Source: Victivallales bacterium
GTDB lineage: Bacteria > Verrucomicrobiota > Lentisphaeria > Oligosphaerales > Oligosphaeraceae
Length of the DNA stretch: 32,190 bases
Direction: 5' to 3'
Assembly: GCA_017450525.1 (NCBI GenBank)
Contig: JAFSTJ010000079.1
Coordinates: forward strand, 1-32,190
Positions 6,301-28,682 of the stretch are shown piece after piece. How positions within the stretch are numbered: position 1 is the stretch's first letter; each line of letters begins with the position of its first letter. The position numbers were made by a program, and so were the translations under genes. The notes beneath the pieces were generated by a model. That model made no database searches, was not told the origin of the DNA, and saw nothing but the letters and a program-made list of their open reading frames with translations.

Positions 6301-6778
6301 CACGCAGTCTGGCACCATACCCCGCTGCATCGTCTCCACCCACAAGACAAAAACACTCACTGGCCATGACATAGCCGAGACGCTTGTCGCCCACTCCTTT
6401 GCGTATGGTCTGCTCAATCATACGGACCAGGGCGTCATCGCCAAGGATGTGAACTACAAGCTGTGGAGGGACTATGTGTTTGATTTCGGCTTTGGTCGCC
6501 CCGCAAACAAGACCATATTGTTCTACAGCCAGGAGAAGCAGCCAGTGACCTGCAGTCAGCCAGGCATCAAGACTACACAGGTCATACGACCAGACAAAAA
6601 GGCGCTGGTCCTCATCGGAAACCTTCTTGACAAGCCAGTCAAGGCGGCTTTTGATGTTACTGCACTCAAATACGGCAAATGCCGCTTCACCGACATACGT
6701 TCAGGAAATGAAATCGACAAGCCTGAACTAGACATTCCCAAATACAGCTACGGCATGCTTTTAATTGAAAAATTGTAA
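3368..6778 (+). CDS. Secreted CBM9-like / DUF6067-like putative glycoside hydrolase
   Basis: A 1136-residue exported protein. A signal peptide (MKKTLFLLLAGSLLAMGYS) leads into a CBM9/DOMON-like sandwich at about residues 28-200, recognisable from VPPTIDGKIAIGEWDYAS, a DNDTVELILLPPG stretch and WTVEMAIPIKVFG. A long beta-rich middle follows. The C-terminal half (about 690-1136) resembles the DUF6067/GH123-like TIM-barrel group, with GFDGMNFDCFP (Asp855 and Asp860) as the likely active-site strand, and a final small beta domain ending in YGMLLIEKL. GH123 members are beta-N-acetylgalactosaminidases, but for DUF6067 no activity is assumed here. The start is fixed by a good ribosome site (GAGGAG, 6 bases before ATG). 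A distant relative of similar plan lies at 24912-28682. It probably acts outside the inner membrane. The family call is from memory and moderate. Confidence 0.65.
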   Translation: MKKTLFLLLAGSLLAMGYSLSDKTLTRFCKMPVPPTIDGKIAIGEWDYASTTFGGISPKSGMMTYRESNFRIGYDKDFIYFASTSEIPLPPQQLDDNDTVELILLPPGAEKPVAIKVDSKGKGNLPEGIKIANDFYADTLTSYLRKCWTVEMAIPIKVFGIAAIEDGKPWGLQMKRNWSNMPETGCWHSATKKDELGTFIPDSAAPVVSFDGFGHSAYRASYNYTWTNRIENITDKPIEIKSSSEVHAFDSPPTLDMINLEHVGDARQISMEPRQLILEPGKTGIVDLYLMAQFVGTRQVYSHFQDKKTGTLYFRRRMYWDLGKARQIIYKETKGLPYVCAAFYPSYGNKLKVAGVFSSTLPCMKAVIEVKDEKGKVLKSYRHSDFGRPIADFEEETYLPNLPLGKYFVTMTATDEKGNDYVQTRTFEVAKFPWQGNTIGCDRVIIPPFKPLKVKKGSNEIHALMTGYRIGGELWDEIYAQEFLSSKRENILAAPVRFLLNGKPFGNAKCKLVSSEKDKVVYETEASNDEATMTITQEYDFDGFCKASIKLVPKGVLRVNDFRLEMPLRDDVVKYYSASGHSGSRSGDAPDLTIPAGEGELQLKGVNFPKGSPASYFWMGGIYKGFCMINDLQRHFSLQEDKGNVTVTRKGNAITCNYIIVNKSTFWQEPVTYTFGFEPTPVKPQAEGIRVIGDYMYDYPPPKGAIWASMSVSGSRVNNMMFPPGQLINNDDSYLDFVFAHRSKPAPDKERLAFAEQFMAKHKDWLRKNMPTVTLGPLVRSLRDKRHLGVDMFMMYNDPTLYSCRWPEAEMYKAEWLPWDYPADDAVNEYTCTHNKSYTDKLLWFMKSQVARGFDGMNFDCFPLGGGFNTTVLGAFRATTGKVPNLHNGNMLQIASPGIKTANSLFSWRELTRRTAIMLYKEGKTFMGYPWVELHDTNCQCVPVTAFCSTTITWERSSRGNEYQRRFPEGFVMAETAGTQSGTIPRCIVSTHKTKTLTGHDIAETLVAHSFAYGLLNHTDQGVIAKDVNYKLWRDYVFDFGFGRPANKTILFYSQEKQPVTCSQPGIKTTQVIRPDKKALVLIGNLLDKPVKAAFDVTALKYGKCRFTDIRSGNEIDKPELDIPKYSYGMLLIEKL

Positions 6779-6797: not shown

Positions 6798-7607
6798 ATG
6801 AAAAAAGACTTCACTTTGATTGAACTGCTTGTTGTAATTGCCATCATTGCAATTCTCGCGGCCATGCTGCTGCCCGCATTGAGCAAGGCGCGGGAAAAGG
6901 CACGCAGCATTTCCTGCACCAACAACCTCAAGACCATCGGTCTGGCGCAGGCATTGTACGCCAATGAAAACGACGACTGGATCTGCGCCGCAAACTACGC
7001 CCAGTCCACGGCTTACACTGGCGGCTGGAATGGCTGCTATTTCTCACCGCTCACAGTGCTGTCAGGCACGGACTGGTACGGAACAAAAAGCCAGTACTAT
7101 ACTGGATATGGCTGCGAATTTTATGGCACATCCGTGAACAAGGGCACATTCTACTGCCCAAGTTCAGACCAGGGAAAGGGCTGGTCATATTGCTTCAATG
7201 AGGTCATCATTGGCTGGCGTGCCATTAACAACGTCCGCAAGGCACACACACTCAACAATGTGACAAGCGCCTCCGATGTGATATATGCCGCAGACAATGC
7301 TCTGTACACCGCCTCCTGGGCAATGTACTGCTACGGCGAGGTGCTTTTCCGCCATGGCGGCGCTGATGCGGGACGCTCTGGCTCTGGACAAGGCTTTTAT
7401 GGCTTGACAGACAAGAACGGCGCCGTTCCCTCTGGCAGGGCAAACTGCCAGTATATCGACGGCCATGTCGAACCAAGAAACTGGCAACATTTCTTCGGAA
7501 TGGCAAGTCCAGGCTCCATAACTGTAAATGGCTCGAATTATAGCATAAACCGCCACGCCAGAATTACCCTCTGCGGCTATAACTGGGATGACGGCCTTAC
7601 TTGGTAA
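6798..7607 (+). CDS. Type II secretion/pseudopilin-like protein (H-Xn-DG type)
   Basis: A 269-residue protein with a class III (prepilin-type) leader MKKD followed by [15 protein letters not shown] and a hydrophobic helix to about residue 28, then [12 protein letters not shown]. Such leaders are cut and methylated by prepilin peptidase, and the mature helix packs into a pilus-like fibre or stays in the inner membrane. The residue before the Phe is Asp, not the usual Gly. The globular part is rich in Tyr, Trp, Gly and Cys and contains the FYCPSS turn common in this family. The C-terminal processing-associated motif is His186...Asp221-Gly-His-Val, with 34 residues between His and Asp instead of about nine, so a loop has been inserted. 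A ribosome site AAGGA lies upstream. It is 19 bp after the DUF6067-like gene. The function of these abundant PVC proteins is unknown; substrate binding or display on a fibre is a guess. Confidence 0.85.
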
Positions 7608-8763: not shown

Positions 8764-8910
8764 AATATATCATATTTTATTAAAATCCAACATTTGTATA
8801 ACTAATACAACCTTCTTTCTATGGTTTTGCACAAAAAAATCATTATAATTATATACGAAATTAAAATTACTGTTTATCTTCAATCAAATGAAAAATGGGA
8901 GACTGGCACA
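8764..8910. promoter_or_regulatory. AT-rich divergent promoter region
   Basis: This 147-bp gap separates the minus-strand AraC-type gene from the plus-strand gene run and is much richer in A/T than its surroundings. It holds a perfect 6-bp inverted repeat, TTGTAT-AACTA-ATACAA (8794-8810), which could be a regulator site. It also holds several -10-like stretches, such as TATAAT at 8844-8849 and TATATA at 8850-8855, the latter 17 bp after TTGCAC at 8827. None makes a convincing full promoter by eye, so only the general role is claimed. Confidence 0.5.
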
Positions 8911-9636
8911 ATGAGACAATTATTATTCCACAGAAATTTCACCTTGATCGAATTGCTTGTCGTGATAGCCATAATCGCTATCCTCGCGGCGATGCTCCTG
9001 CCTGCATTGAGCAAGGCAAGGGATGCCGCGCGCACCACCAGCTGCGTCAGCAACATGAAACAACTTGGCGTGGGCTATGCAATATATCTTGACGACAGCG
9101 ACGGCAACATGCTTACATACCGAATGCTGTCCAAGAACAATGGAAGCGCCGAAGGCGACTATGCAGGGAAATTCTGGTCATACACACTTGCTCCATACGT
9201 TTCTGAAAACGCTCTGGTGGCGACAGGATATTTCAACAAGAAAGGCGTATATGTCTGCCCCGCTTTCAGCGATAGGAAACCCTATTCTGGGTACGGTGAA
9301 AACACAGTCTGGGAGGCCAGCAGAACAGACTACGGCATTGCAAGATACGGCGCTGGCGGGATTCCAGGCTATACTGGCGTCGTGCGCAAGATAGAAGCCG
9401 TCAAAAAGCCTTCAGGCCTGCTTCTGTTCGGGGATTCATACAATTCCAATTTCAGCGGGCACGGCGGCAATGCGGACATCCTGCCCCACGCATACGTGGA
9501 GTTCAGGCACAATGGCAGCAGTGCCGCCAATTTCCTCATGGTTGACGGGCATGTCGAGAAGATGACATTGCTCCAACTCAAGTTTCCTGACCGCTCCACA
9601 AACGCAGCTGCCAACGCCCCATGGGGCAACAATTGA
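8911..9636 (+). CDS. Type II secretion/pseudopilin-like protein (H-Xn-DG type)
   Basis: A 241-residue pseudopilin. The frame is open from 8821, but the extra 30 residues ([12 protein letters not shown]...) come from the AT-rich promoter region. The ATG at 8911 has a GGGAG ribosome site nine bases upstream and puts the cleavage motif in its normal place: MRQLLFHRN, then [15 protein letters not shown]. Asn precedes the Phe where Gly is usual. The helix is followed by [20 protein letters not shown], a central domain with a YVCPAFS turn, and His200-X11-Asp212-Gly-His-Val near the C-terminus. It is the first gene of the run controlled from the AraC-side promoter, and 62 bp precede the GH110-like gene. 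The role is unknown; the position suggests it is made together with the glycan-degrading enzymes. Confidence 0.87.
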
Positions 9637-9698: not shown

Positions 9699-11309
9699 AT
9701 GAGATTTTGCTTTTCTGAATGTCCAGGGACAAACAATATTGAGCGTGCCAGGAATGCAGCGGCGCGACTCAGGGCTCATCCTGGCAGTGAACTATTCATA
9801 GAGCCAGGTGTATATGATTTTGAGACAAGTCAATCAATGGATTTGCAACGGCGTGCAATGGCGGGTGAATTCTCCGTCATCCAGCTTTGGAAGCTGGGCA
9901 ACAGCTGCGAAACTGCGCTGAATCTTACTGGCTGCCGCAATGTCAGGATTATTGCGAAAGGTGTGCTGTTCCGTTTTCACGGCCTTTGGGAGGGGCTAAG
10001 GATTGAGAACTGTGAAAACATATCCGTTGAAGGGCTTGAATTTAACATTGACCGCAAGCCATTCAGTGTTGCGCGCATTCTTGAGGAAAATGATGAAGGG
10101 GCGATTGCGGACATCCAGGATTCCCGCCTTCTTGCAGGCAACACCCCATTCAAACGGGCCATGGTCTGGAAGGATGGAAAATATACGGAAATTGACGTTC
10201 CCAGTTCAATTGAGTTGAAGGATGACGGCAAGCTGCTTCTCAGGGGCCTGCAACGCAAAGGGCTTGTCGGCTGCCAGTTGTACCTGTGGCACTTTTATGT
10301 CTATAGGCCTGGGATAGCCATATACGACAGCAGCGATGTCAATATTCATTCCGTCAGAATATACAGTTTCTGTGGCTACGGTATAAATGGTGAAGGCTCC
10401 AGGAATATATCGCTGGACGGCGTATGGGTTGTCCCAGAACCTGGTCTGAGGGTATCCACTCCTGTTGATGCAACGCATTTCGCCTCCTGCCAGGGCAGAA
10501 TCACATACCGCAACTGCCATTTTGCGGGACATGGGGACGACGCCATCAATGTGCACGGCTATTTTCACCAGACGAAAATTATCTCAAGCAGGGAATGCAT
10601 TGCCCAATACAGGGCAGGATTACGTGATTTTGCCCACAGTGGCAGAAAAGCCGTCTTCAATGTTGGTGAACATCTTATACTGACACGAAAAGACAACCTG
10701 GAAATACTAGGAGAATATACCCTTGTAAAATCCCAGGACATGCCAGAAAATGCACAGTTGCTGGAACTGGACGGGCCTCTTCCTGTTAGCGACAGCGAGT
10801 TGCTGCTGAACGCGAAGGAACGCTGCAGCGTGGAGCTTGAGATTAGTGGCTGCACATTTTCCGACCACAATGCCAGAAGTATTCTCGCAAAATGCCGCAG
10901 AGTTAAGATAATGAACAATATATTCCGCCATTCGGTAATGGCGGCAATCTACATCGCGCCGGAAAGTTTTTATGCTGAAGCATCTGTAACAGAAGAAATC
11001 CTTATAAAAGGGAATATATTTCTGGACTGCGGGACACGCCTTCCCGCCCTGCCCTACGATACAGCCTGCATTCTAGTGCAGGTAGATGCACCATCACTGC
11101 CCAGGCAGCGCCACGGCCGCCTCTGCATAGAGTACAACCTCTTTGAGCATACAGGGACAAAACATGCCGTAATGGTGCGTGACGTTGAAAATTTGAAGCT
11201 TTCGTGCAACCGCTTCAGCCCTGGACAAGAAAGCATACTGCTGGATTCAAGGCGCATCGGCATGATTGACTGCGATTGCGCATACATAGATAAAACCATT
11301 AACAACTAG
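9699..11309 (+). CDS. GH110-like alpha-1,3-galactosidase (parallel beta-helix)
   Basis: A 536-residue protein of right-handed beta-helix type. Repeated strand units are visible, such as CRNVRIIAKGVLFRF, CENISVEGLEFNI, SSDVNIHSVRIYSF and SRNISLDGVWVV. The stretch THFASCQGRITYRNCHF followed by GHGDDAINVHGYF (Asp280, Asp281, His286) is the segment I associate with GH110, whose members remove terminal alpha-1,3-linked galactose, including the blood-group B antigen. Length is close to the family's roughly 600 residues. No signal peptide is seen, whereas characterised Bacteroides GH110 enzymes are exported, so this one may act inside on imported oligosaccharides. The ATG at 9699 has no clear ribosome site. 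It is followed 12 bp later by the GH65/95-like gene. Another beta-helix glycosidase or lyase is the alternative. Confidence 0.7.
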   Translation: MRFCFSECPGTNNIERARNAAARLRAHPGSELFIEPGVYDFETSQSMDLQRRAMAGEFSVIQLWKLGNSCETALNLTGCRNVRIIAKGVLFRFHGLWEGLRIENCENISVEGLEFNIDRKPFSVARILEENDEGAIADIQDSRLLAGNTPFKRAMVWKDGKYTEIDVPSSIELKDDGKLLLRGLQRKGLVGCQLYLWHFYVYRPGIAIYDSSDVNIHSVRIYSFCGYGINGEGSRNISLDGVWVVPEPGLRVSTPVDATHFASCQGRITYRNCHFAGHGDDAINVHGYFHQTKIISSRECIAQYRAGLRDFAHSGRKAVFNVGEHLILTRKDNLEILGEYTLVKSQDMPENAQLLELDGPLPVSDSELLLNAKERCSVELEISGCTFSDHNARSILAKCRRVKIMNNIFRHSVMAAIYIAPESFYAEASVTEEILIKGNIFLDCGTRLPALPYDTACILVQVDAPSLPRQRHGRLCIEYNLFEHTGTKHAVMVRDVENLKLSCNRFSPGQESILLDSRRIGMIDCDCAYIDKTINN

Positions 11310-11321
11310 CAAAAACATTAT

Positions 11322-13190
11322 ATGAATACCTTTCTACAGATTTGCAACAAGGCGCAGGCCGATGACCGCTATTATCCGCCTGTGCTAGGCAATGGCGACC
11401 TATCCCTAGCCGTTGACTATGAAGGCTCCCAGCGGCAGATTACGCGGCAGTTCATGACGCCAGCCATATTCAGGGCGGGCAAGCGCTATTTCGCGCCAGG
11501 ATATCCATTAATCAACTTCGGTTATTTCATGCAGGATTTCGGTTCGTCTGACTTGATTGACTGGACCCAGACCCTTGACACAGAAAATGCCATAATGACC
11601 TGCAATTGCGTTTTCAGCGATGGTCTCAAGGCCACCAGTCGCATATTCTGCCATGCGGAAAGAGCAGTAATCGCCTTCAATGTATCCCTTTCAGAAACCA
11701 GGGAATACAAATTCCGCCACAGCATTCCATATCAGCGTCGCATGGCGCTCTCGCCAATTTCAGACCATTGCATTGCATACGACGCCGATTCAATGAACCA
11801 TGACCGTGGAAGCATTTCATTGATAGCCCCTGAAGGAGCCCAGTCCTTTGCATGGCAGGATGGACTCTCCTTCAGCCTCAAAGGAAAAGATTTCACTTTC
11901 TTCCTGGTATTCGATGAAGAAGAAGGTGCTTATGATTATGAATCCCTGTATGCATCCCACCAGAGGAACTGGCATGCATTTTGGGACGAGGGCTATGTGC
12001 GCTTGCCCTCCGAGGCAATAGAGCGAATGTACCATACCGGGCTCTACCACCTCAAGATTTTTTCCACTAAATGGTCTATACCAATGGGGCTCTTCCCTTT
12101 GCACTGGGAAGGACGCTATTTCGGATATGACGAAATTTATTCATTTGACGCGCTGTTGAGCAGCGGCCACCTCAGCCTGGCGAAAAAGATACCGGAATTC
12201 CGCCATTCGCTTCTTGGAAGCGAGCTGCAACGCCACAAGGCCACCTGTGAAAAACGCGGGGTGGCAATGTCCTTCCCCGTTGAGACAATGGAGAATGGGC
12301 AGGAAGGCACACCACCTGGATTCTGGTGCGAACACATTTTCCAGACGGCGCATATCGGAATATGCGCAGGATGGTATGCAAAGTATTCAGGGGACAAGGC
12401 ATTCCTGAGCGAGAAAGGCTATCCACTTATGCGCAGCTGCGCGGAATATTTCCGTCTAGGCCATATATACCGCACGGAAGACCACAAGACAATAATCGGC
12501 AAATGCACTGATCTTGAAAGACTGGGGGCATTTGTGGAAAACGGCTTTGTAACTACCTGTTCAGTGATCTGCCTGTTCCGTCTAGTTTCAGAATATGCGA
12601 AACAGCTTGACCTGGACCAGCAACTGGCGGCCGAGTGGAAACGCCTGGCAGATGAGCTTAAAGAGAGCCTTCCAAAGGACAATGAGAAGTATCTTCCGCG
12701 AATTGGCTATGCACAGCGTTCGATTGCCGTATATACAGGGCTTTATCCGTATGGTGTCACCAGCGACGATGACCCGCTTCAAATCGCGGCAATCCAGGAT
12801 GCTGATGCGCATTGGGAGGACTTTGCGCTACAATATACAACTGGCGGCAAGGTCATGTCCAGCTGGTACAAGGGAATGATAAGCCTGGCCTACGCCCATT
12901 GCGGGCGTCTTGACGACGCAGCCGAACTGCTTGAATCGGGCGCGCATTCCGTCGGCTGTTTCCACGAGTGCTTTGAGATATACGACTGGCGCTACCGTCC
13001 CTGGTTTTCCACGGCGGCAGGCGCTCTTGTCCGCGCGGTAAATGCAATGTTTGTGCAAAATAATGCCCTTGTGCCTGGCATTCTCAAGGTCTGGCCGAAT
13101 TTTGAAATCAAACTGCAAATCGAAAATGGCAGGATGCTCTATGCCAAAGCCGTTTCAGGGACATTGCAGCAACAAATCATAGAACCATAG
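11322..13190 (+). CDS. GH65/GH95-like six-hairpin glycosidase
   Basis: A 622-residue protein. The N-terminal beta-sandwich (to about 215) opens with the PPVLGNGDLSLAVDYEG phrase typical of the GH65/GH95 superfamily. A linker SHQRNWHAFWDEGYVRLP leads into an (alpha/alpha)6 barrel with ERMYHTGLYHLKIF, GRYFGYDEIYSFDALL, GFWCEHIFQTAHIG and a late HECFEIYDWRYRPWFSTAAG. A small C-terminal beta domain follows (GILKVWPNFEIKLQ). GH95 members cleave alpha-1,2-fucose or galactose; GH65 members are mainly disaccharide phosphorylases. Which of these, or a neighbouring family, applies cannot be settled without alignment. No signal peptide is present, so the enzyme is probably cytoplasmic. It lies 12 bp after the GH110-like gene. 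The next gene's ribosome site overlaps its stop codon, which argues for one transcript. Confidence 0.65.
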   Translation: MNTFLQICNKAQADDRYYPPVLGNGDLSLAVDYEGSQRQITRQFMTPAIFRAGKRYFAPGYPLINFGYFMQDFGSSDLIDWTQTLDTENAIMTCNCVFSDGLKATSRIFCHAERAVIAFNVSLSETREYKFRHSIPYQRRMALSPISDHCIAYDADSMNHDRGSISLIAPEGAQSFAWQDGLSFSLKGKDFTFFLVFDEEEGAYDYESLYASHQRNWHAFWDEGYVRLPSEAIERMYHTGLYHLKIFSTKWSIPMGLFPLHWEGRYFGYDEIYSFDALLSSGHLSLAKKIPEFRHSLLGSELQRHKATCEKRGVAMSFPVETMENGQEGTPPGFWCEHIFQTAHIGICAGWYAKYSGDKAFLSEKGYPLMRSCAEYFRLGHIYRTEDHKTIIGKCTDLERLGAFVENGFVTTCSVICLFRLVSEYAKQLDLDQQLAAEWKRLADELKESLPKDNEKYLPRIGYAQRSIAVYTGLYPYGVTSDDDPLQIAAIQDADAHWEDFALQYTTGGKVMSSWYKGMISLAYAHCGRLDDAAELLESGAHSVGCFHECFEIYDWRYRPWFSTAAGALVRAVNAMFVQNNALVPGILKVWPNFEIKLQIENGRMLYAKAVSGTLQQQIIEP

Positions 13191-13203
13191 GAGCTTGAAA
13201 AAG

Positions 13204-16071
13204 ATGAAGCGGCTGTCTTGTATTTTTCTATGCCTTGCGCTGTTTGCCCTTGTTTCAATCGGTGGGGAGGCATATTCCGCGGCCTTCACATCGGAGGGCA
13301 CGATATTCTTCCTGGTGCATCCAGGAGGTCCTTTGAAACTGGAAATCACCTTGACACGCGGTACGCCTGACTATCGGGGCAATCCAATATTGAAGACCAG
13401 CCCCAATGCGCTGTTCAGCATCTTCAATCAGGATGAAAAACTGCTTGCAATGGAATATTGGCGCCCCGCGCCTGGCGAAAAGGAGAAAAAATACACTTTC
13501 GAATATCCTGAGGCAACGAAAGGAATATGGCAGATAAGAAATGCCTTTGCCCAGAACTGCAATCTTTCAATACGGCTTAAGACCACGCCTGAATTGAAAT
13601 ACGGAGTGCTTTTCCCAAGATGCAGAATACTTTCCCAGGACGCACATACAATACGCAATTCTTTCTTCATTGTGCCACCGCCAACCACACCGCTGAATCT
13701 CAAGCAGCCCACTCCAAATGACCCACAGAAGACAGAGCAAAGGCTTCATATTGCAGTACGTGGACGGCAGACGGAGTGCCGCACGTCAACAGGCGAGAAA
13801 ATCACCGACTGCGACATATATGAAATCGCGGGAGCCATGCCTGACCTGCCATGCAACGCCATGATTGAACTGCCCTTCGGCGCACAAGAACGCCAGCATT
13901 ATACAGGCATGCCCTCCGCCCGCATACGCGATGGGAAAAAGCAGACTTTGCTCACACTTCAGGCAGACAGCAGCGCGGTCCTGACACTGAAGGAACAAGA
14001 GGTATATCAGCTGCTGGTGGACAATGCCAAGGAAGGCTATCTGGCCATTGACGGCTTCCCTGTCATTTTCTGCCCCGACGCGGAAACTGCCAAGGCAATC
14101 GGCGGCAGCATGGTCAAGGCAAATGACGGAAGGCACTTCCATCACCTTTTCCAGGTGAAAATGCACGAATGGATAAAATCGCTTTCCAAAGAGGAGCTGG
14201 AAATACAGCCCGTGCCACTGGAGAAATTCAAGAAGGAATGGCTCAAGGACTCAAGAAGCAGGGATCTGCTGCAGCTTTTCGCATACGCGCCCCATCTTTT
14301 CAAGGCAATGGACACCAATCCAGGCAGCCTTACATTCGGTACCTCACCGCTGAATCTAGGAGACATGACGCTGCTTTACACGCTGGACAAGCCATACAAC
14401 CCATATTATGGAAACAAGGCTCTTATGAAGCGTGTTTTCCTATATTATTTCAGAAAATGGCTGTGCCTGTCCGAATCAGGCGCATTCCACGATGACCCCT
14501 CCCACCCCGCATACTGCGGCGGAATGGAGTGGAGCGGCTGGGAAGGAATGGTTTTCTGCGCAGACTATATGACACTTGCAATGATGGCACCCATTGCAGA
14601 CAAGGAACTGCTCGCCCTTTGGGAAGAGGCCTTGCGCCTGCCCGCCCATAGATTCTGGTCCCAAAGGCTCAATTGCGAAAACCAGTCGCTGCACTGGCCC
14701 CTTAAATTGTATGCGCTCAACATGGCCTCTGGAAATCCTCTTTACAAGAAAATGGCACAGGACTATCTGGCTGACATCGCCAATCCCGCCCTGTCCCGCA
14801 GCATGAAGACTGGATATCTGCTTGAGGCGTATGGTTTGGACGGCACATACATCGGCATATCCGCCTCGCTGCTGGCATTTGCCGCCCGCTTTTCAGGCGA
14901 TGATGCCGCCCTGCCTGTGCTTAGGCGCATGTACGAGCTGCTGTGCCACACCGTCGTGCGTGAACCAGACGGGAGCATGGCGGCCGCCAATGGCTTCGGA
15001 CACCGTACCCTTGGCAGCTGGCTTTCTCCCCAGTACGGCGCGGGCGTCAGCCTCGTCGATGACCGCCTGGAGGCGGCCGCAGTCATGTCCAGGCGCAAAG
15101 CGGCGGTGCCCCTTACTGAGGCGGAATTAGACAGGTACGCAAAAGTGCAGGTGCCCGACAACATTGAGGAATGGTGCAAGGTTGCAGGCAAGAATCTCAC
15201 CCACTATGCAATGTGCACCTGGCCTCCCATTTGGTTCAATTCAATACTGCCAATGGGGGACAAAATACAGAACGCACGCCTTCCCGTGGAAAAAGCAAGC
15301 GACTTCGAGAAAAATTTCAACGATGAATTCTACGCCCGCAGGAAGCCAGGCTACTACGCGTTCATCTACACGGGGAACTACAGCTGGCGCTGGCATTATC
15401 TGGAGACATTGACTGCGCCATTGACGACAAGCACCAAGATTACGAATGGCGAAGTATTTTCAAGCGGTTCTTCAGAGCCATGGCTGCCGATGCAAGGTCT
15501 GAACATCTTCTGGACGCCGTCATTCGGCATCTTTGCAAGTGCGCACAACTGGTCAATATACAGCCAAAATCTGCTTCGCGTAGAAAGAGAAGGCAAGCTC
15601 GTTGACTTTCCCGCCTGCAACAGTGCAATACAGCACATTGACAAGGACAATGTCACGCTTGAACACAAGTCCCGTTTTCTTAATCTGAACCTGAAAAGGC
15701 AAATGGAAATGCGCGAAGGTGGCATACGCGTCTGTTTGAGCGTAGGCAAGGCCACTGAAATTAAGCCTGTAACGCTGATTGAGCAGATACCATTTCAGGT
15801 CAAGGAGGACATGACATTCTCTGCCTGCAAAGATGTGCAGCAATTGAAACTGCCTGCAGAAGGAGTGACTTTGCTCAAGATAAGCCGAGACAACGGCAGC
15901 GCTATAATCCTGCGCTTCAGCAAGCCAGTGTCAGTTCGCCTTGGCTACACATCACGTGCAACGTTCAATGACGCCAAACTGCGCATACGCGCCTTGGAAA
16001 TTGCCTTTTCCAAGGATTTTGCTGGAAATGGCGCAGAGGACTTCTCATACGAAATGACTGGAGTAAGATGA
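13204..16071 (+). CDS. Secreted toroid-like protein of unknown family (copy 1)
   Basis: A 955-residue exported protein that I cannot place in a named family. The ATG at 13204 is chosen over the TTG at 13195 because AGGAG at 13188 is then 11 bases away and the signal peptide (MKRLSCIFLCLALFALVSIG) starts properly. After an N-terminal beta domain (TIFFLVHPGGPLKLEITL; GIWQIRNAF) comes a helical region of about 330-640 that looks like an (alpha/alpha) toroid. It contains NCENQSLHWP (490-499), LLEAYGLDGTYIGIS (539-552) and GFGHRT (597-602), and is followed by a beta-sandwich (GLNIFWTPSFGIF...). An Asn/His, Tyr and His set in such a fold recalls heparinase- and PL8-type lyases, so a polysaccharide lyase is a fair guess but unproven. 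It is paralogous to 17105-19735. The stop is one base before the next start. Confidence 0.6.
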   Translation: MKRLSCIFLCLALFALVSIGGEAYSAAFTSEGTIFFLVHPGGPLKLEITLTRGTPDYRGNPILKTSPNALFSIFNQDEKLLAMEYWRPAPGEKEKKYTFEYPEATKGIWQIRNAFAQNCNLSIRLKTTPELKYGVLFPRCRILSQDAHTIRNSFFIVPPPTTPLNLKQPTPNDPQKTEQRLHIAVRGRQTECRTSTGEKITDCDIYEIAGAMPDLPCNAMIELPFGAQERQHYTGMPSARIRDGKKQTLLTLQADSSAVLTLKEQEVYQLLVDNAKEGYLAIDGFPVIFCPDAETAKAIGGSMVKANDGRHFHHLFQVKMHEWIKSLSKEELEIQPVPLEKFKKEWLKDSRSRDLLQLFAYAPHLFKAMDTNPGSLTFGTSPLNLGDMTLLYTLDKPYNPYYGNKALMKRVFLYYFRKWLCLSESGAFHDDPSHPAYCGGMEWSGWEGMVFCADYMTLAMMAPIADKELLALWEEALRLPAHRFWSQRLNCENQSLHWPLKLYALNMASGNPLYKKMAQDYLADIANPALSRSMKTGYLLEAYGLDGTYIGISASLLAFAARFSGDDAALPVLRRMYELLCHTVVREPDGSMAAANGFGHRTLGSWLSPQYGAGVSLVDDRLEAAAVMSRRKAAVPLTEAELDRYAKVQVPDNIEEWCKVAGKNLTHYAMCTWPPIWFNSILPMGDKIQNARLPVEKASDFEKNFNDEFYARRKPGYYAFIYTGNYSWRWHYLETLTAPLTTSTKITNGEVFSSGSSEPWLPMQGLNIFWTPSFGIFASAHNWSIYSQNLLRVEREGKLVDFPACNSAIQHIDKDNVTLEHKSRFLNLNLKRQMEMREGGIRVCLSVGKATEIKPVTLIEQIPFQVKEDMTFSACKDVQQLKLPAEGVTLLKISRDNGSAIILRFSKPVSVRLGYTSRATFNDAKLRIRALEIAFSKDFAGNGAEDFSYEMTGVR

Positions 16072-16072
16072 A

Positions 16073-17101
16073 ATGACCTTAAATAATCTAAGGTGCGCCG
16101 TAATAGGCCTGGGAAGAATTGGATGGAATTTCCACATTCCCCAGCTTATGAAATATGAGGGATTTACATTGTCCGCCATTGTAGATCCAAATGAATCGCG
16201 ACTTCAGGACGCAAGGGAGAAACTGGGAATATCAGCGTTGTTCAAGAATTGCAGTGAAATTGCGGATGGCAGCATTGATTTGGCGGTCATAAGCTCACCC
16301 ACGCCATTCCACTGTGAACAGGCGCTTTATTTTCTCCGCCATGGGGTGGATGTCTTTTGCGACAAGCCAATGGCAATGTCGTATGCGGAGGCAAAGACAA
16401 TGGCACGTACGGCTGCTGAACTTGGGCGCAAGCTTATGGTGTATCAGCCGCACCGTCTCAGCACGACGGCTTTGACGGCAAAGTCAATCCTTGCCTCCGG
16501 AAAACTGGGCAGAATATTCAAGATAAGTCGTTCAGCGGACGGCTTCACAAGACGCAACGACTGGCAGGCACTTTCCAGATTCGGCGGTGGAATGCTGTTC
16601 AACTATGGAGCGCATTTCATAGACCAGCTGTTCTATCTTGGAAATGACAGCTGCGGGAGGGCAAAATGTGAACTGCGCAAGGTGCTGTCACTAGGCGATG
16701 CGGAGGATGTGGTATCTGCGCTGATAACAGGCAAAAGCGGTATTCTGTATGAACTTTCCATCAACCAGGCGAACGCCTTTACACAGCCTGACCTGGCAAT
16801 ATTCGGAAATATGGGAAGCGCCATGGAAATGCCTGACGGAAACTGGAAATTGCGCTACTGCACAAGCATGCCAGCCCTCACCCTTGAATCGGGCTTGGCC
16901 GCAAAAGACAGGAAATATCCCAGTGAAGAACTGCCTTGGCAGGAGGAAATAGTCAAGGCAATACCAGAACACTATGGAGATTTCTACATAAAGGTCCGTG
17001 AATACTTTGCGGAGGGACGGGAGCCCTTCATACCCATTGAAGAGACACTTGAAGTAATGCGAACCATTGAACTGTGCCAAGAAAGCGCCAGGGGAAATTA
17101 A
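16073..17101 (+). CDS. Gfo/Idh/MocA-family NAD(P)-dependent oxidoreductase
   Basis: A 342-residue cytoplasmic protein of the usual family length. The Rossmann half shows AVIGLGRIGWNFHIP (residues 9-23), a following acidic strand end (AIVDPNESR), and the catalytic CDKP loop with Lys98. The C-terminal half has the GAHFID motif (His181, Asp184) that normally positions substrate and proton transfer. Family members oxidise or reduce sugars and inositols at one hydroxyl, or use transient NAD oxidation for glycoside cleavage; the substrate here is unknown. It starts one base after the copy 1 stop and ends three bases before copy 2, so all three are very likely translated together. That close packing suggests it works on a sugar released by the two secreted proteins. 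Confidence 0.9.
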   Translation: MTLNNLRCAVIGLGRIGWNFHIPQLMKYEGFTLSAIVDPNESRLQDAREKLGISALFKNCSEIADGSIDLAVISSPTPFHCEQALYFLRHGVDVFCDKPMAMSYAEAKTMARTAAELGRKLMVYQPHRLSTTALTAKSILASGKLGRIFKISRSADGFTRRNDWQALSRFGGGMLFNYGAHFIDQLFYLGNDSCGRAKCELRKVLSLGDAEDVVSALITGKSGILYELSINQANAFTQPDLAIFGNMGSAMEMPDGNWKLRYCTSMPALTLESGLAAKDRKYPSEELPWQEEIVKAIPEHYGDFYIKVREYFAEGREPFIPIEETLEVMRTIELCQESARGN

Positions 17102-17104
17102 GCC

Positions 17105-19735
17105 ATGAGAAATCTGCTTGCCATTTTGCTTGTTCTTGCAATGTTTCATAGCCTAGCCGCCGATTTCGGTGTCCAGGCATGGAAGCTCCAGGCGGCCGTG
17201 TTCTTTCTAGAACACCCTGGAGGCGACTTGCATTTCCAATGCAAGCTTGCTCATCCAAAGGAAAATTACACGGAAAAAACAGGCAGCGGCACCACACCAG
17301 CCGCACTGCTGACCTTGTACACGCCTGATGAACATGTTTACAAGGACTTCTACTGGCGGGACTCCAAAGGCGAACTTGCCACCTCATTCAGCTGCATTGT
17401 GCCTGATGCAAAACCTGGCATCTGGCAGATACGCGTCGCAAATGATGAACGTTCCAAATGCTCGTTCAAATTCGACACAATGCCTGGAAAAATCGAAGGC
17501 ATAATGCCGGCGCGCTGCTGGCTATGGCACCAGACTGGAGCAATGCTGGACGGCACTTTTGTCATGGTTCCACCCAATGCGACGCAGGATTTGAAGGTCA
17601 ATGCATACAACTGCCAAATAGAATTCCTGGAACTGGACGGCCGTACTGTAGCAAAGGTGGACAAGGGAAGCCAATTGCTCAAATTGACACCAGGCAAAAT
17701 CTACAAATACCGCAATTCCACAAAACAGCCGTCTTGGAACTGGTCAGGTTATCTGGGCTACCCTGTCATATTCTGCTCTTCCCAGCAATTCGCCGAGAAA
17801 CTCAATGCCAGCCTGATTGAAATTGACGACATGCATTTCGTACCATTGGGGGTTCAAAAGCGCATTCTGGAGTGGAAGAAATCACTGCGCAAAGAGGATT
17901 TGCAGGTTCCGGAATTCAAGCTGGAGCCGCTGAAGGAAAAATTCCTTGCAGACAAAGAGAGTCGCTGCCTGCTGGAACCCACTGGTCTTCTTTCAAGCGC
18001 CTCGTTTCTGCTCTCGCAACAGGACATTGAACCCAGCTCCACTAAATTCGGCCATTCACCCCAGGACATAAGCGGACTTGCGTTCTTATACGCATTGGAC
18101 AGGCCCTACAATCCATATTTCAAATGCAAGGGCCTCCTCAACAGAGTTTCACTGTACTGGCTCAACACAATGGCACAACAGCGACCCCTTAGGGAAAATG
18201 GCACCATTTTCGAAACATCGTCCAACTATGCAGGGGCAGATGGAATGCTGCACGTCAACGCCTACACGGCATTCGCGCAACTTGCGCCTGCCATGCCCGA
18301 GGATGTCAAGACAATGTGGAGCGAGGCACTGGGCTATCCGCTCAGGCGCTTCTTCAGCGACAGGGTGTCCTGTGAAAACCAGTCTGCACACTGGCCAGCA
18401 AAGTTGTTCCTGTACGGGCAGGCCACCAATCTCCAAATATTCAAAGATATGGCGGAGGACTTTGTAGAGAACCTGGCGGACACCGCAAGGGACCGCTTCA
18501 TACGCACTGGCTATCTCCAGGAATCGTATGGGCCTGATGCCTCGTACATGGGCATTTCCACCTGCCTTCTGGCATATTACGCCCTGCTCTCCAATAGCAG
18601 GAAAGCATTGTCGCTGCTGGACAGGATATTCAATTTCATGAACCACACTGTTGCTCCAGAACCTGGTTCAACGCTGTTCTACGGTGCAAGCGGTTTTTCC
18701 CACAGGACGCCTGCGCCATGGAATCTCAGGCAATACGGCGGGGGAACCAGGTTGCTTGCAGACAAACTAGACAGCGCCGCCTGCCTTCACAGGCATATTC
18801 CTGAAAAATCCCCATGGAACGCAAAAGAAGTTGAGCGCCTGCTGTTCTGGATTTCCCGCAACAAACTCAAATACTACGCGCAGATGTCTTCAATGGCGGT
18901 GGAGTACGCCTATTCGCCATACGCGCAGCTCTGGTATTCCCTTCCGTATGTCCAGCCTAGGCAAAACGCCAAATTACCGGCGGAATTCTCCGAAGGCTTC
19001 ATCCACAATTTCAACAACGAGTTCATTTTCCTGCGCAAAGCCTCCTATTATACGGGAATCTACGCAGGCTCGACAGCCACGCCCAATGTGCCTTGGAACA
19101 AAAATGCAATATATGCATCCGGCGCCTGGAAGGAGGAAAATGGAATAAGGAATTACACTGGCTCAAGCTGTGCCCAGCCAGTTCAGGGAGCGCAGATATT
19201 CTGGACGCCAGAATACGGAACCGCACTTATTTCAATGAACTGGAGCCTTTTCACTCAATGGAACTGCTATATTAAAGGCAGCGATGAGTATGTGTTTCCC
19301 GACTACTTCACTGCCTCAAGTAAATTTGACGAGGCAAGCGGCATGTTGGAAATCAGGCACAAATTCCGCAATTCCAAGGCAAGCGTTGAACGTAGATTCA
19401 CATTTGAGGATGATTCATTGACCATCGATATAAGGGTACAGGACAAACCAGAGAATATGAAATTGCTTGAACAGCTGCCATACATCAGCAAAGAAGGCAT
19501 CAAGCTGGAATTTTGCTCGAATGGTAATTGGAAAACCGAAGCAGGGGACGCAGTCTCAGCCATACGCTGGAGCAATGGCTCTGGCGCTGGTATTCTGCTC
19601 ACTTTCTCAAGCCCGGTGAATGTCCACCGTGCGCCTTCCCAGTTTAAATACCAGTATATGACCGTCGCAAGTCTTGAAGCTGAAGCAGACGCAACGGAAA
19701 TATCATATACGCTATCTCCCATAAATGCAAAATAA
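17105..19735 (+). CDS. Secreted toroid-like protein of unknown family (copy 2)
   Basis: An 876-residue paralogue of 13204-16071 with the same domain order: signal peptide (MRNLLAILLVLAMFHSLAA), N-terminal beta domain (AVFFLEHPGGDLHFQCKL; GIWQIRVANDERSKC), helical toroid-like region and C-terminal beta-sandwich (GAQIFWTPEYGTALIS). The key motifs are kept: CENQSAHWP (423-431), LQESYGPDASYMGIS (471-485) and GFSHRT (530-535). Copy 2 lacks a stretch of roughly 60 residues that copy 1 has near position 200. Both being exported, and both keeping the His/Tyr/His pattern, suggests two active enzymes with different specificity and not one decayed duplicate. The family is unrecognised; a lyase- or heparinase-like fold is inferred from motif style only. 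The GH36-like gene follows 15 bp later. Confidence 0.6.
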   Translation: MRNLLAILLVLAMFHSLAADFGVQAWKLQAAVFFLEHPGGDLHFQCKLAHPKENYTEKTGSGTTPAALLTLYTPDEHVYKDFYWRDSKGELATSFSCIVPDAKPGIWQIRVANDERSKCSFKFDTMPGKIEGIMPARCWLWHQTGAMLDGTFVMVPPNATQDLKVNAYNCQIEFLELDGRTVAKVDKGSQLLKLTPGKIYKYRNSTKQPSWNWSGYLGYPVIFCSSQQFAEKLNASLIEIDDMHFVPLGVQKRILEWKKSLRKEDLQVPEFKLEPLKEKFLADKESRCLLEPTGLLSSASFLLSQQDIEPSSTKFGHSPQDISGLAFLYALDRPYNPYFKCKGLLNRVSLYWLNTMAQQRPLRENGTIFETSSNYAGADGMLHVNAYTAFAQLAPAMPEDVKTMWSEALGYPLRRFFSDRVSCENQSAHWPAKLFLYGQATNLQIFKDMAEDFVENLADTARDRFIRTGYLQESYGPDASYMGISTCLLAYYALLSNSRKALSLLDRIFNFMNHTVAPEPGSTLFYGASGFSHRTPAPWNLRQYGGGTRLLADKLDSAACLHRHIPEKSPWNAKEVERLLFWISRNKLKYYAQMSSMAVEYAYSPYAQLWYSLPYVQPRQNAKLPAEFSEGFIHNFNNEFIFLRKASYYTGIYAGSTATPNVPWNKNAIYASGAWKEENGIRNYTGSSCAQPVQGAQIFWTPEYGTALISMNWSLFTQWNCYIKGSDEYVFPDYFTASSKFDEASGMLEIRHKFRNSKASVERRFTFEDDSLTIDIRVQDKPENMKLLEQLPYISKEGIKLEFCSNGNWKTEAGDAVSAIRWSNGSGAGILLTFSSPVNVHRAPSQFKYQYMTVASLEAEADATEISYTLSPINAK

Positions 19736-21942: not shown

Positions 21943-21968
21943 AGGGGCTTGACACGCCCCTTTTTTTT
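21943..21968 (+). terminator. Rho-independent terminator after the GH36-like gene
   Basis: AGGGGC (21943-21948), loop TTGACAC, GCCCCT (21956-21961), then a run of eight T (21961-21968). This is a compact GC stem followed by a U-tract, 186 bp after the GH36-like stop codon. It would end the long plus-strand transcript. The loop is also the -35 box of the next promoter. Confidence 0.7.
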
Positions 21969-24126: not shown

Positions 24127-24172
24127 CAAGCATAGTCAAGGCGAAAAACAAATTACATTGGAGAAAGAGAAA

Positions 24173-24895
24173 ATGAAAACAAGAATGAAGTTCACTCTCA
24201 TTGAATTGCTGGTCGTGATCGCGATTATTGCCGTGCTTGCCGCAATGCTTCTGCCTGCCTTGAGCAAGGCAAGGGCCAAGGCCAGAAGCGTCAGTTGCCT
24301 AAGCAACTTGAAACAGATTGGCCTGGCATATCTGGAGTATGTGCATGACAGCGATGACTGCCTGCTCCCATGGAAAAACGATGAAACCGCCACTGCGACT
24401 ACGTGGGTTTCACTGGTAAGGCCATATCTTGGACTTTCAAATGCAGCTTCCGCAAACGGCACTACCGCATCGCCCCTTTTCTGCCCCGATTCAGAGACAT
24501 ACCCCAATGAGACATGGGGGCCTTATTGCAAGGACCAGGGGCATTTCGTCACTTATGGCCTGAATCTATTGCTGGTGCCTGGCGACGGCAACATAAAAAA
24601 GACGCCGCATGTCTCAAGAATCAAGTTTCCGACACAGACATCCCCGATTATGGATTCACGCAACAAGAACAGGACATACCTCAGCGATACTGGCGAAGAA
24701 TATCTGAACATAATGCGCCATCCGCGCAACAGGATCAACGCCCTGCTCGTCGATGGCCACGTTGAGGATTTTGATCTTAGCTACATGCGCGCCACACGTG
24801 ACAGTTATGGCACGGACCGCACTGGAAACATTTTCTTCCGCGGACACAAATCTCCAGGCGCGTCCTTCTGGACCAATGCCAATCTTGGCTACTGA
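24173..24895 (+). CDS. Type II secretion/pseudopilin-like protein (H-Xn-DG type)
   Basis: A 240-residue pseudopilin. The ATG at 24173, preceded by GGAGAAAGAG, is used instead of the TTG at 24158. It gives the leader MKTRMK followed by [15 protein letters not shown] and [12 protein letters not shown]. Lys takes the place of the usual Gly before the cleavage site. The C-terminal motif is His183-X10-Asp194-Gly-His-Val. In the middle, VKTPHVS-like and [13 protein letters not shown] stretches match the common plan of these proteins. It follows the PL22-like gene by 46 bp and precedes the LamG/CBM9/DUF6067-like gene by 16 bp, the same neighbour type as the pseudopilin at 6798. Its function is unknown. 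Confidence 0.87.
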
Positions 24896-24911: not shown

Positions 24912-27900
24912 ATGGCTAGACATGCTTTTGCCGTAGTGCTGGTGGCTTTGCTTGGCCTGCTTGCCGCTGACGACACACTTCTGTTCCATTTGAATTTCGA
25001 CTCGTACTTCACTGTGGCCGATGTCGCCGGCGGAAAGGCTGAATCCGTGAATTTCGAGAGGGACCTGCAATTGAGAATGTGCCCTGGAATAGACGGCAAG
25101 GGCAATGCCCTCAAGCTGAATGGCAGGGAATTCTGCGCATACAAGATGAAGGGCAACTTCGATACCCGCAGGGGGACGGTGAATCTGTGGTGCAGTCCCC
25201 AGAACTGGTCATTGGCTGAAAAGACGCAGAACGTGTTCTTCGAAGCCAAGCAGGCGGATTTCAGGCTGCTCCTGTACAAATTCGTCAACACGCCCTATGT
25301 ATGCGTTTATTTCCAGACCCGCAACTTCGAGGTGGTGAATGCAAAAATCAACACTGCAGATTGGGGTAACGGCCAATGGCACATGCTTACGGCGACCTGG
25401 GACAGTGAGCGCCTTCGTGTCTATGTGGATGGCAAGATGCCGCCAGCCCACAGGCCAGGCAACATGCAGCCAGCCATTCCAGAGAAGGTGTTCAATACTG
25501 AAAAGACGCTTCCGGATGTATCGGAGCATGGTGTAATCGGGCTGGGCAATCTGTTCCTGGGGTTCAGAGATTGCAAGGAGACCGAGGAGACCTCCTTCAA
25601 TGAACTTTCCATATACAAGCGTGTGCTTTCTCCAGCGGAGATTGAGAATCTCTATGAAAAGATACGTCCTCCACGCAGTGATGCCCGCAGGCCAGTGGTT
25701 CTTACCGTGCCCAAATGCAAGTCGGTTCCAATTCTGGACGGCAACGTAACCGACGATGAATGGAAGGACGCGGCCCATATCCCGCTGAAGGTGGTGTACA
25801 AGGGAGCAAACCATACATTGCAGTCAAGTACAAAGGTCCGTCTCAAGACAGTGGGAGAAAGTCTTTACATCGGCTTTACGACGGACCAGCCATTGACAAA
25901 AAGGCAATTCACCAGGCTTGACGAGAAGGTTTACAATGACGATTCCCTAGAGATGTTCTTTCAGGATGACGGGAAGCATGAATATTGGTTCAATATAAAC
26001 GCCAACGGCGCCATTCTTGATGCCATGGATGGCAAGGTGGAATGGAACAGCGGGGCCAGGGCGGCTGGCAGGCCGCTTGAAAAGGGCTGGAGCGCGGAAG
26101 TGGCAATTCCCCTTGCATCAATAGGCAGCCCTGTTCCAGGAAGGCAATATCGCGCGAATGTGCATGCGCTCAATTTCAGCAATGCGCCGAATTATTATTT
26201 GAGCTGGACTGGCTCGCCTGAAGCTCGCGCCAGTACAGGAAGCAGTTCGCTGGTGTTCGCGGAAAACGGGGAATGCGTTTCATTGGAAAAACTCGGTGAC
26301 ATCTATGGCGGCAATCTGGCGGCGCGCATAAAGGCCGCAGTGCCAGTTTCGGTGAAGGTCAACGGCGAGAATGTGGCGTCTCTGGATGGACTTTATTTGA
26401 GAAGGCTTAATGCGGGAAAGCACCAGCTGGAAATATCCGCTGGCGAAAAATTCTACTATCCTTTGGAATTTATAGTGGACGAGCCTCTGGCTCTTTCAAC
26501 AAAGGCATATCCTTCAAGGGAAAAGCTAGTGGTGAGGGCCAACCTCAGCAGCGCTGGCGGCGATTTTCTGGACGGACTTGGCTCCAGCACTGGTGAAGTA
26601 TGGCTGGAGCAGAATGGAAAGGTCTTTGCGAAGGCTGATTTCAAGCCTGGAATCGTCACCGACGTGGAATTGCCCCTGAAGCCAGCCTATCCTTCAGGTG
26701 AATACCAGATAAAGGCAATGGTAAAAGGAAAGAAAATCCTGAATGCCGGCATGAACTTCAGGATTCCCGACCAGGCCCCATACAAGGCAAAAGTCGCACT
26801 CGACCACACAGTTCCCGAACCCTGGGTTGAAATCCAGGAGCGGAACGCAGGGGCTTTTGAGATTCTTGACCGCAGGTATGAATTCAACGAAAGCCCATTC
26901 CCGAAGTCAATGGTATCGAGAGGAAGGAATGTTTTGGCCTCGCAGCCTGTCCTGCATATTGACGGGCGTCCTGCCAAATGGGGAAAAATCAATGTTGTCC
27001 AGCGCAATGACGATGTGGTTTTATTCTCTGGCGAGGGAAATTGTCGTGGAATCAGAATACCGTGGAAAGGCGAGCTTTGGTTTGATGGAATGTGGAAAAT
27101 CGACTTCACATTGCAGCCAGGAGAGGCATGCAAAATCGGTAACATGCGTATTGAATGGAGAATGCCTGAAGAATCCGCGAAATGTTTCATCTCCAATTGG
27201 AAAAGCGGGTATGTGACAGTGCCGTGGGAAAACCACCAGATAAAAGCTGACTTGACGGTAAAGGATTCCTGCTGGCTTACTGGAATTGAAACAGGTCTGG
27301 CGTGGATGCCGCTTTCCTCAGCCAACTGGGTGGCAGGCAAGTCCAAGGCAACAGTCTTGCAGCAGGAAAGCGGAGCCGTATCCGTTACATTGAACATAAT
27401 CGGCAAGGAAGTCCTTCTGGACAGGCCTGCCAGCTATTCCATGGCGTTCATTGCAACGCCCTCAAAACGCCCAGTGAAGAATTTCAGGACCGTTGCCGAA
27501 GGCGGGTATTTGAACAATCCATACGAGAACATGCAGATCACCAGCACTGGCTCTATGCTTGACAGGGCGGACAGGATTGACGGTTATTCGCACAAGATGA
27601 AATTCCCTGGACGATATCGCAAGGAGTACATTGAGCCATATTTGAAGCGAGGAGTGCGTCTTTTCCCGTACCAACAGCCCAAGAGCATTTCACAACTGGA
27701 CGCCGAATGGGACTATTACCTTGAAGAATGGAAGAGCGTCCCTGGATATGTGCAGTCTGGTCTGCTTGTTGACAAGGGGCAGAAGATAGACTGCGTGCAT
27801 TGCTGCGGCGAGGGCATTGCAGACCTTTGCTGCTACAATCTTGCACAATTGTACAAGGACTTTCCCGAACTTGGCGGAATATACTACGACATCTGCAATG

Positions 27901-28682
27901 TGGGCCAATGCAACAACACGAATCATGGTCATGGTGGAACTGATGCATTCGGGCAGAAATACTATGATTCAACTGTATTGTCATTGCGGGAATATCTTAT
28001 GCGTGTTTACAAGATATCCCATGGAATGGGCAAGGCTGTGTTCAACCACGCACATAACTACTTCACGCCCTTTGCCCACAATTTCACCGACTACTGGTAC
28101 CCAGGTGAAAACGAGGTATGGCTCTATGGCGAGAATCCTGACTACTACTATTGCGAGGCACCATTGCTGGAGTACCAGTACGCCTGGAGTCCAGTCATCC
28201 GCGGCGCTGCCATAATCCGCTGCAACCAGGTTTCCCGCGTGCTGTTCATGGAAAAACTCAAGCCAAGAAAAAAGGAACTTGAAGGGGAGAAAATGGCAGA
28301 GCGCTCATTTGCCAGCGCCTGGCTCCACGACTTCACGGTGGATTCCGATTGGATAAACAACAGGGCGGTCGCCAAGTTCTGGAAAATCAGGAACGAACTG
28401 AATCTCGATGAGGCCACATTCCATGGCTACTGGTTTGATTCAAATGTCAAATCCAGGTCAGCTGGCGTATATGTCTCCTGGTATGAACTCAAGAATGCGC
28501 CATACGGCAAGGTACTGATGGTCTGCAACATGTCGCGGAAAAATCAGCCCGCGTCATTGCAGACTGACATGCTGAAGGAAGGCGATGAAATAACCGAACT
28601 GTGGAGCGGAAGGAAATACGGCGCAAGGCAGGTAAATGAACTTGTTGTTCCTGAAAATGGCTTCCTGCTGCTGGCTTTTTAG
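24912..28682 (+). CDS. Secreted LamG + CBM9-like + DUF6067-like putative glycoside hydrolase
   Basis: A 1256-residue exported protein. Order: signal peptide (MARHAFAVVLVALLGLLAA); LamG/concanavalin-like domain at about 25-255, with GTVNLWCSPQNW, WHMLTATWDSERLRVYVDG and FNELSIYKRVLSPAEI; CBM9-like domain at about 268-465 (SVPILDGNVTDDEWKDA, NDDSLEMFF, WSAEVAIPLASIG); beta-rich middle; and a C-terminal TIM-barrel-like part of DUF6067 type with GGIYYDICNVGQCNN (Asp993), NHGHGG and FNHAHNYF. It ends in a small beta domain (VPENGFLLLAF). The two N-terminal domains suggest binding to a polymer before cleavage. The ATG is fixed by a strong GAGGAGGG site. It is the larger relative of 3368-6778, which lacks the LamG domain. 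The hydrolase activity is inferred. Confidence 0.7.
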   Translation: MARHAFAVVLVALLGLLAADDTLLFHLNFDSYFTVADVAGGKAESVNFERDLQLRMCPGIDGKGNALKLNGREFCAYKMKGNFDTRRGTVNLWCSPQNWSLAEKTQNVFFEAKQADFRLLLYKFVNTPYVCVYFQTRNFEVVNAKINTADWGNGQWHMLTATWDSERLRVYVDGKMPPAHRPGNMQPAIPEKVFNTEKTLPDVSEHGVIGLGNLFLGFRDCKETEETSFNELSIYKRVLSPAEIENLYEKIRPPRSDARRPVVLTVPKCKSVPILDGNVTDDEWKDAAHIPLKVVYKGANHTLQSSTKVRLKTVGESLYIGFTTDQPLTKRQFTRLDEKVYNDDSLEMFFQDDGKHEYWFNINANGAILDAMDGKVEWNSGARAAGRPLEKGWSAEVAIPLASIGSPVPGRQYRANVHALNFSNAPNYYLSWTGSPEARASTGSSSLVFAENGECVSLEKLGDIYGGNLAARIKAAVPVSVKVNGENVASLDGLYLRRLNAGKHQLEISAGEKFYYPLEFIVDEPLALSTKAYPSREKLVVRANLSSAGGDFLDGLGSSTGEVWLEQNGKVFAKADFKPGIVTDVELPLKPAYPSGEYQIKAMVKGKKILNAGMNFRIPDQAPYKAKVALDHTVPEPWVEIQERNAGAFEILDRRYEFNESPFPKSMVSRGRNVLASQPVLHIDGRPAKWGKINVVQRNDDVVLFSGEGNCRGIRIPWKGELWFDGMWKIDFTLQPGEACKIGNMRIEWRMPEESAKCFISNWKSGYVTVPWENHQIKADLTVKDSCWLTGIETGLAWMPLSSANWVAGKSKATVLQQESGAVSVTLNIIGKEVLLDRPASYSMAFIATPSKRPVKNFRTVAEGGYLNNPYENMQITSTGSMLDRADRIDGYSHKMKFPGRYRKEYIEPYLKRGVRLFPYQQPKSISQLDAEWDYYLEEWKSVPGYVQSGLLVDKGQKIDCVHCCGEGIADLCCYNLAQLYKDFPELGGIYYDICNVGQCNNTNHGHGGTDAFGQKYYDSTVLSLREYLMRVYKISHGMGKAVFNHAHNYFTPFAHNFTDYWYPGENEVWLYGENPDYYYCEAPLLEYQYAWSPVIRGAAIIRCNQVSRVLFMEKLKPRKKELEGEKMAERSFASAWLHDFTVDSDWINNRAVAKFWKIRNELNLDEATFHGYWFDSNVKSRSAGVYVSWYELKNAPYGKVLMVCNMSRKNQPASLQTDMLKEGDEITELWSGRKYGARQVNELVVPENGFLLLAF

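Follow-up and report, generated by a model that had tools for sequence, protein, structure and literature searches.

Gene arrangement at the locus

What is the function of two large exported proteins encoded on either side of an oxidoreductase gene in a Victivallales bacterium, and do the three genes form a unit? Lentisphaerota and their relatives carry large polysaccharide clusters that are full of unannotated exported proteins. The window, meaning the whole stretch of DNA that was analysed, makes up the whole of contig C699 (32190 bases), in a genome of 906 contigs that is an estimated 78% complete. Three genes on the + strand encode a 955 aa protein (P0001, 13204..16071, read from its ATG), a 342 aa Gfo/Idh/MocA-family NAD(P)-dependent oxidoreductase recognised through Pfam (16073..17101) and an 876 aa protein (P0002, 17105..19735). 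The mechanical open reading frame of P0001 starts at a TTG (13195); an AGGAG at 13189–13193 lies 10 nt ahead of the ATG. Plausible ribosome-binding sequences are likewise present before the oxidoreductase (GGAG, 16060–16063) and P0002 (AGGGG, 17090–17094). A sequence-only reading had described two exported paralogues with shared motifs around the Gfo/Idh/MocA gene, and the reading frames, motifs and gaps were all confirmed, with junctions of one base (16072) and three bases (17102–17104).

The neighbouring genes are also close. A GH65/GH95-like gene ends 13 nt upstream of P0001 (11322..13190, +; NF053734 at 75 bits and PF22124/PF03632, all below cut-off) and a GH36-like (melibiase-like) gene starts 15 nt downstream of P0002 (19751..21757, +; PF02065, E 9.9e-4, below cut-off). 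A right-handed beta-helix protein (9699..11309, +; PF13229, E 6.2e-10) is likely part of the same gene run, which ends at a terminator-like hairpin with a T tail (21943..21961, +; consensus match only). Since the flanking GH-like genes follow without a real gap and the run ends at the hairpin, the genes are better taken as an operon-like run, at least five genes long, than as a unit of three. GH116, GH123-like, GH109, GH36-like, GH65/95-like, beta-helix and PL22-like genes are found across the window, and P0001 and P0002 therefore belong to a complex-glycan cluster.

Several other features of the window were recorded. The GH109-like gene (28742–29998; PF21252, E 6e-65) is another instance of the Gfo/Idh/MocA fold. 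Two very large proteins have GH123 N-terminal-domain matches (3368–6778 and 24912–28682), the second of which additionally carries LamG-like and CBM9 domains. An open reading frame that runs off the contig (30051–32189) encodes 713 aa or more and has no Pfam match.

An undescribed protein family

P0001 and P0002 are 31–33% identical over most of their length (BLASTP E about 1e-100) and, from this alignment, are true paralogues rather than a chance resemblance. They share the motif pairs CENQSLHWP/CENQSAHWP, YGLDGTYIGIS/YGPDASYMGIS and GFGHRT/GFSHRT, and both start with a hydrophobic, signal-peptide-like segment that can be read directly from the sequence. The earlier reading could name no family for them, and the searches agree. 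There was no Pfam match at E≤1 and no NCBIfam match for either protein, and none in Pfam for nine further homologues. A PDB sequence search with a profile of 23 relatives was empty, and searches with type A and type B profiles returned chance matches only. No literature on Lentisphaerota toroid lyases was found.

In the tree the window pair are sisters, each being the nearest relative of the other. This suggests an old tandem duplication with long branches, although the tool warns of possible long-branch attraction. Two further copies of the same type, called A, adjoin one another on contig C444 of the same genome, one of them cut by the contig end. Directly upstream of this second pair is a gene with a Schlafen/AlbA_2 domain (L008, 3444–4748; PF04326, E 7e-12).

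A type-A profile (E≤1e-8) has matches in 28 of the 198 genomes of the class sample. Named relatives are mostly Lentisphaerota (Victivallales), together with a few Verrucomicrobia- and Planctomycetota-labelled records and one Zipacnadia genome. In many relatives the type-A gene stands beside a gene of a second type, B, encoding an exported protein of about 850–1000 aa without a Pfam match. A profile comparison of the alignments of the two types shows homology across 711 columns (probability 100, E 2.7e-40). The type-B motifs TCVNQW, EGFGHDNEYNLE, KTHLT and RTRYYTHK differ from those of type A, yet Asn, Glu, Asp, Tyr, His and Arg are retained in them. The type profiles also brought out groups a and c, and the superfamily comprises at least four diverged types, mostly 840–1150 aa long and about 17% identical by profile.

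Some members have unusual features. In L073 the type-A gene is in two overlapping reading frames (9965–12557; 549 and 334 aa), which is a frameshift or an assembly error. Exported-looking proteins of 611 aa that resemble one another are encoded directly upstream of a type-A gene in L067 (695–2530) and L073 (7941–9776); the L067 copy has no Pfam match.

Predicted fold

AlphaFold2 modelling with 23 relatives gave confident models of P0001 (pLDDT 78.7, pTM 0.83) and P0002 (pLDDT 84.4, pTM 0.88), in which a signal-peptide-like start leads into a beta domain of about 190 residues at the N-terminus, then a helical toroid and finally a beta-sandwich at the C-terminus. In P0002 the predicted secondary structure places the beta-rich domain at residues about 30–217 (17192..17755, +), with an equivalent in P0001; the model and Foldseek place the toroid at about 227–612 (17783..18940, +), and the sandwich is modelled at about 632–873 (18998..19723, +).

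Foldseek comparison with the PDB returned only toroid polysaccharide lyases or human dermatan-sulfate epimerase 1 at ranks 1–31 for P0002 (E 2.9e-11 to 1.3e-7) and at ranks 1–20 for P0001. For both models the E-values against the lyases run from 2.9e-11 to about 1e-6, and the families matched by both are PL35, PL33, PL15, PL8 and PL12. The GH127 toroid hydrolases enter the list only at 4e-5 and 1.9e-4. The TM-scores are modest, at 0.3–0.5 over the whole chain, which may be due in part to the extra N-terminal domain and to a hinge between toroid and sandwich, as documented for PL33 (PMC11848413). A toroid resembling heparinase- and PL8-type lyases had been suggested from the sequence, and this holds in the predicted structures, with lyases at the top of the ranking. 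The modelled fold thus supports the toroid-lyase assignment well, and in terms of chemistry the assignment is plausible.

The best fold matches of P0002 are PL35 GAGases and PL33 hyaluronate lyases (8khv, 8r71), which likewise have a toroid followed by an antiparallel beta-sandwich. They differ in having no sequence relation by profile search, and P0001 and P0002 have the additional N-terminal beta domain. The PL8 lyases of xanthan, hyaluronate and chondroitin (AC) share the fold and are among the best matches of P0001, but have a different N-terminal domain, and PF08124/PF02278 do not match either protein. For the heparinase-like families PL12/15/17/21/33/35/39 the toroid plus antiparallel beta-sandwich is common to the predicted models.

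Candidate active site

Conservation was assessed in an alignment of 58 sequences from the four diverged types, in P0001 numbering. Tyr549, Arg601 and Gly537 are present in 58/58, Asn493 in 57/58, and Glu541 and Asp546 each in 56/58. His582 is kept throughout types A and B only, and His600 in type A only. The candidate active-site residues are N493, E541, D546, Y549, H582, H600 and R601 in P0001, corresponding to N425, E473, D478, Y481, H514, H533 and R534 in P0002. Spaced His, Tyr and His residues had been proposed from the sequence. Catalytic-looking spaced residues are indeed there, the tyrosine being invariant, but the histidines are restricted to particular types and the deeply conserved set is Asn493, Tyr549 and Arg601.

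The spacing from the conserved Asn to the Tyr is 56 in both proteins. In the P0002 model Asn425 and Tyr481 are each at the start of a helix, one helical hairpin apart. The catalytic Asn/His-to-Tyr spacing is 53–63 in PL8, 12, 15, 17, 21, 23, 35 and 39 (PMC12088678, Table 4), with 54 in PL35, and it is 53 in PL33 (PMC11848413). In chondroitin AC lyase (PL8) Asn-Tyr is 59 and Tyr-Arg is 54, from the residues named in PMC8733870, compared with 56 and 52 here. Of the PL8 tetrad of Asn, His, Tyr and Arg, the Asn, Tyr and Arg are found in the same order and at similar spacing; the PL8 His nine residues before the Tyr is replaced by a Glu at Tyr minus eight.

In a weak profile match to heparinase-type proteins (the heparinase II/III group, PL12 and PF07940/PF16889 proteins), Asn493 falls on the Asn of the heparinase III GNH, Tyr549 on the catalytic Tyr of that enzyme, and Gly537-xxx-Glu541 on DGxxxE, so that the N...GxxxE...Y pattern aligns in register. 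The superfamily profile scores 39.7 in this comparison, with reversed and block-shuffled decoys at most 24.2, but the score is not above that of a GH127 control (44.7, E 4.8e-4), and PF16889/PF07940 do not match P0001 or P0002. Because the control is higher, the match is no evidence for a lyase over a hydrolase, and supports only a toroid with a suggestive active-site register. Against PL8 the superfamily profile also beat the decoys but reaches only E 0.0045, and a type-A-only profile gave no signal with the PL8 and PL12 alignments.

The proteins could instead be toroid glycoside hydrolases with a GH127/GH65-like layout, in which Glu541 and Asp546 serve as acid and base on a neutral or amino-sugar glycan. 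The near invariance of these two residues would suit such an enzyme, as would the GH127 score, the mainly GH-like neighbours and the lack of GH88 in the genome. GH127 uses a catalytic Cys, however, and its conserved Cys/zinc site has no counterpart in this family: no Cys is invariant in the 58 sequences, C491 being conserved just in the majority of type-A members and in part of type B, and absent from types a and c. No role is established in such hydrolases for the invariant Tyr or for an Asn spaced from it as in lyases, and Foldseek places the lyases far above any GH toroid. A hydrolase is therefore considered unlikely.

A uronyl C5-epimerase acting at the polymer level, which like human dermatan-sulfate epimerase 1 would modify an acidic polysaccharide without cleaving its chain, was also weighed. 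That epimerase (6hzn) has a similar fold, comes third in the Foldseek list for P0001 and 22nd in that for P0002, and its key Tyr is also 56 residues after the carboxylate-binding residue (His205-Tyr261; PMC8006597). It is biosynthetic, whereas the gene setting here is catabolic, and neither its His205, its Tyr473 nor its Mn ligands are recognisable in the 58-sequence alignment, making this function very improbable.

The sandwich His, which is catalytic in PL12/15/17/21/33/35/39, has no conserved counterpart: there is no His among the sandwich columns conserved in more than 80% of the 58 sequences, nor among the invariant or nearly invariant type-A columns. As this residue is a feature of most toroid lyase families, P0001 and P0002 are an undescribed family, separate from the known ones.

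Proposed function

With the lyase fold and the Asn/Tyr register on one side, and the missing sandwich His and the higher GH127 control on the other, beta-elimination is the most likely chemistry and hydrolysis its main rival. P0001 and P0002 are probably secreted enzymes that form an undescribed family within the toroid-plus-beta-sandwich group, to which polysaccharide lyases and uronyl epimerases belong. For a beta-eliminating enzyme, the substrate uronate would sit in the cleft between toroid and sandwich, where Asn493/Asn425 would neutralise the carboxylate and Tyr549/Tyr481 would take the C5 proton and then protonate the leaving oxygen. The invariant Arg601/Arg534, with the conserved Glu541 and Asp546, may position the substrate or the tyrosine, and His582 is a candidate helper in type A. 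Two diverged copies in one gene run would each act on a different linkage of the same complex acidic polysaccharide, and the products would be trimmed by the GH-like and beta-helix neighbours.

A secreted structural or glycan-binding role, with the toroid fold kept but no catalysis, would fit the long beta domains at both ends and the lack of a known activity. The conservation in the toroid is point-like, at Asn, Glu, Asp, Tyr and Arg, across such distant types, and both window copies retain all the conserved residues; a non-catalytic role is the least probable of the readings considered.

Unsaturated-uronyl hydrolases of GH88 bear on the substrate. None was found in this genome at its 78% completeness, the sole match being a cross-match of a GH127 gene, and this weakens a classic glycosaminoglycan reading. 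If uronates are cleaved, an exo-acting lyase or another route for the products would be needed. GH88 was dropped as a functional marker of the family, as it shows no association in co-occurrence (3 of 24 carriers and 37 of 173 others, p = 0.42).

Placing the superfamily beside the toroid lyases gives named candidate active-site residues that are directly testable. If its members are lyases, they come in pairs and their helper residue differs from that of nearly all known relatives, which would bear on the breakdown of complex acidic polysaccharides in gut, sediment and bioreactor communities.

Pairing of family members

A neighbourhood survey covered 47 loci, each with one or more family members; two members count as a pair when they are on the same strand and separated by no more than two genes. 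Paired members are present in 17 of the 47, although many of these loci are from related genomes and the pairs are not independent events. The pairs are A-A in the window, C444 and genome G356; A-B in L055, L056, L059, L060, L061, L062, L068 and L069; a-B in L045, L046, L116, L117 and L121, with one partner cut by the contig end in both L116 and L117; and c-c in L051. Of the 16 type-B genes, 13 are paired in this way, and one of the other three is at a contig end. Where both partners are present the branching orders of A and B in the tree are compatible, which suggests joint inheritance of the pair.

The oxidoreductase is between two family members in a single locus of the 47, that of the window. 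Elsewhere Gfo/Idh/MocA genes are at a distance or on the opposite strand (e.g. L053, L061, L104). The proposal that the three genes are locked together as a functional unit is not supported by this survey, whose outcome is close to the one that the sequence-only reading had itself named as refuting. The recurrent unit is a pair of toroid proteins, often type A with type B, not the trio, and it is the superfamily and its pairing that are new here.

The middle gene is a Gfo/Idh/MocA member (PF01408, E 2.5e-26, 93.1 bits where the cut-off is 24; PF22725 and PF02894, the Gfo/Idh C-terminal domain, likewise over cut-off), and its sequence starts without a signal peptide. No NCBIfam equivalog is over cut-off, and the nearest solved relatives are DgpA2 and uncharacterised oxidoreductases. 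As it matches enzymes of unlike substrates about equally, its role is not assignable. The idea that its substrate is the sugar set free by the two toroid enzymes, an internal redox step in the sequence-only reading, has in its favour only the adjacency: one strand, 1- and 3-nt gaps and a ribosome-binding sequence at each start. Close pairs without an oxidoreductase exist in C444 (27-nt gap) and G356 (3-nt gap), and together with the survey these make a three-gene unit quite improbable. The gene would rather be a cytoplasmic passenger, or a downstream sugar-modifying step special to this genome, outside the conserved module.

It is possible, though tentative, that the pairs are obligate. The proteins would then be a new lyase family without the sandwich His, in which A+B or A+A partners are co-inherited as neighbouring genes and act as a two-toroid complex or as a matched set of complementary enzymes on an acidic polysaccharide.

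In L061 (9923–15019, the two genes being at 9923–12448 and 12464–15019), and also in L062 and L068, the type-B partner has a lipobox-like start (LSGC/FTGC) and its type-A neighbour an ordinary signal peptide. This suggests that in these pairs one member may be anchored and one free.

In about 20 of the 47 loci, DUF1559 prepilin-like genes stand no more than two genes away from a family member; such genes are abundant in these genomes generally. In the window they are at 6798–7607, 8821–9636 and 24158–24895; the other loci are L055, L056, L059–L062, L064, L068–L070, L104, L107–L109, L116, L118–L120, L045 and L046. They often follow a GntR/LacI/AraC-type regulator, and in L056, L059 and L060 they are between the A and B genes.
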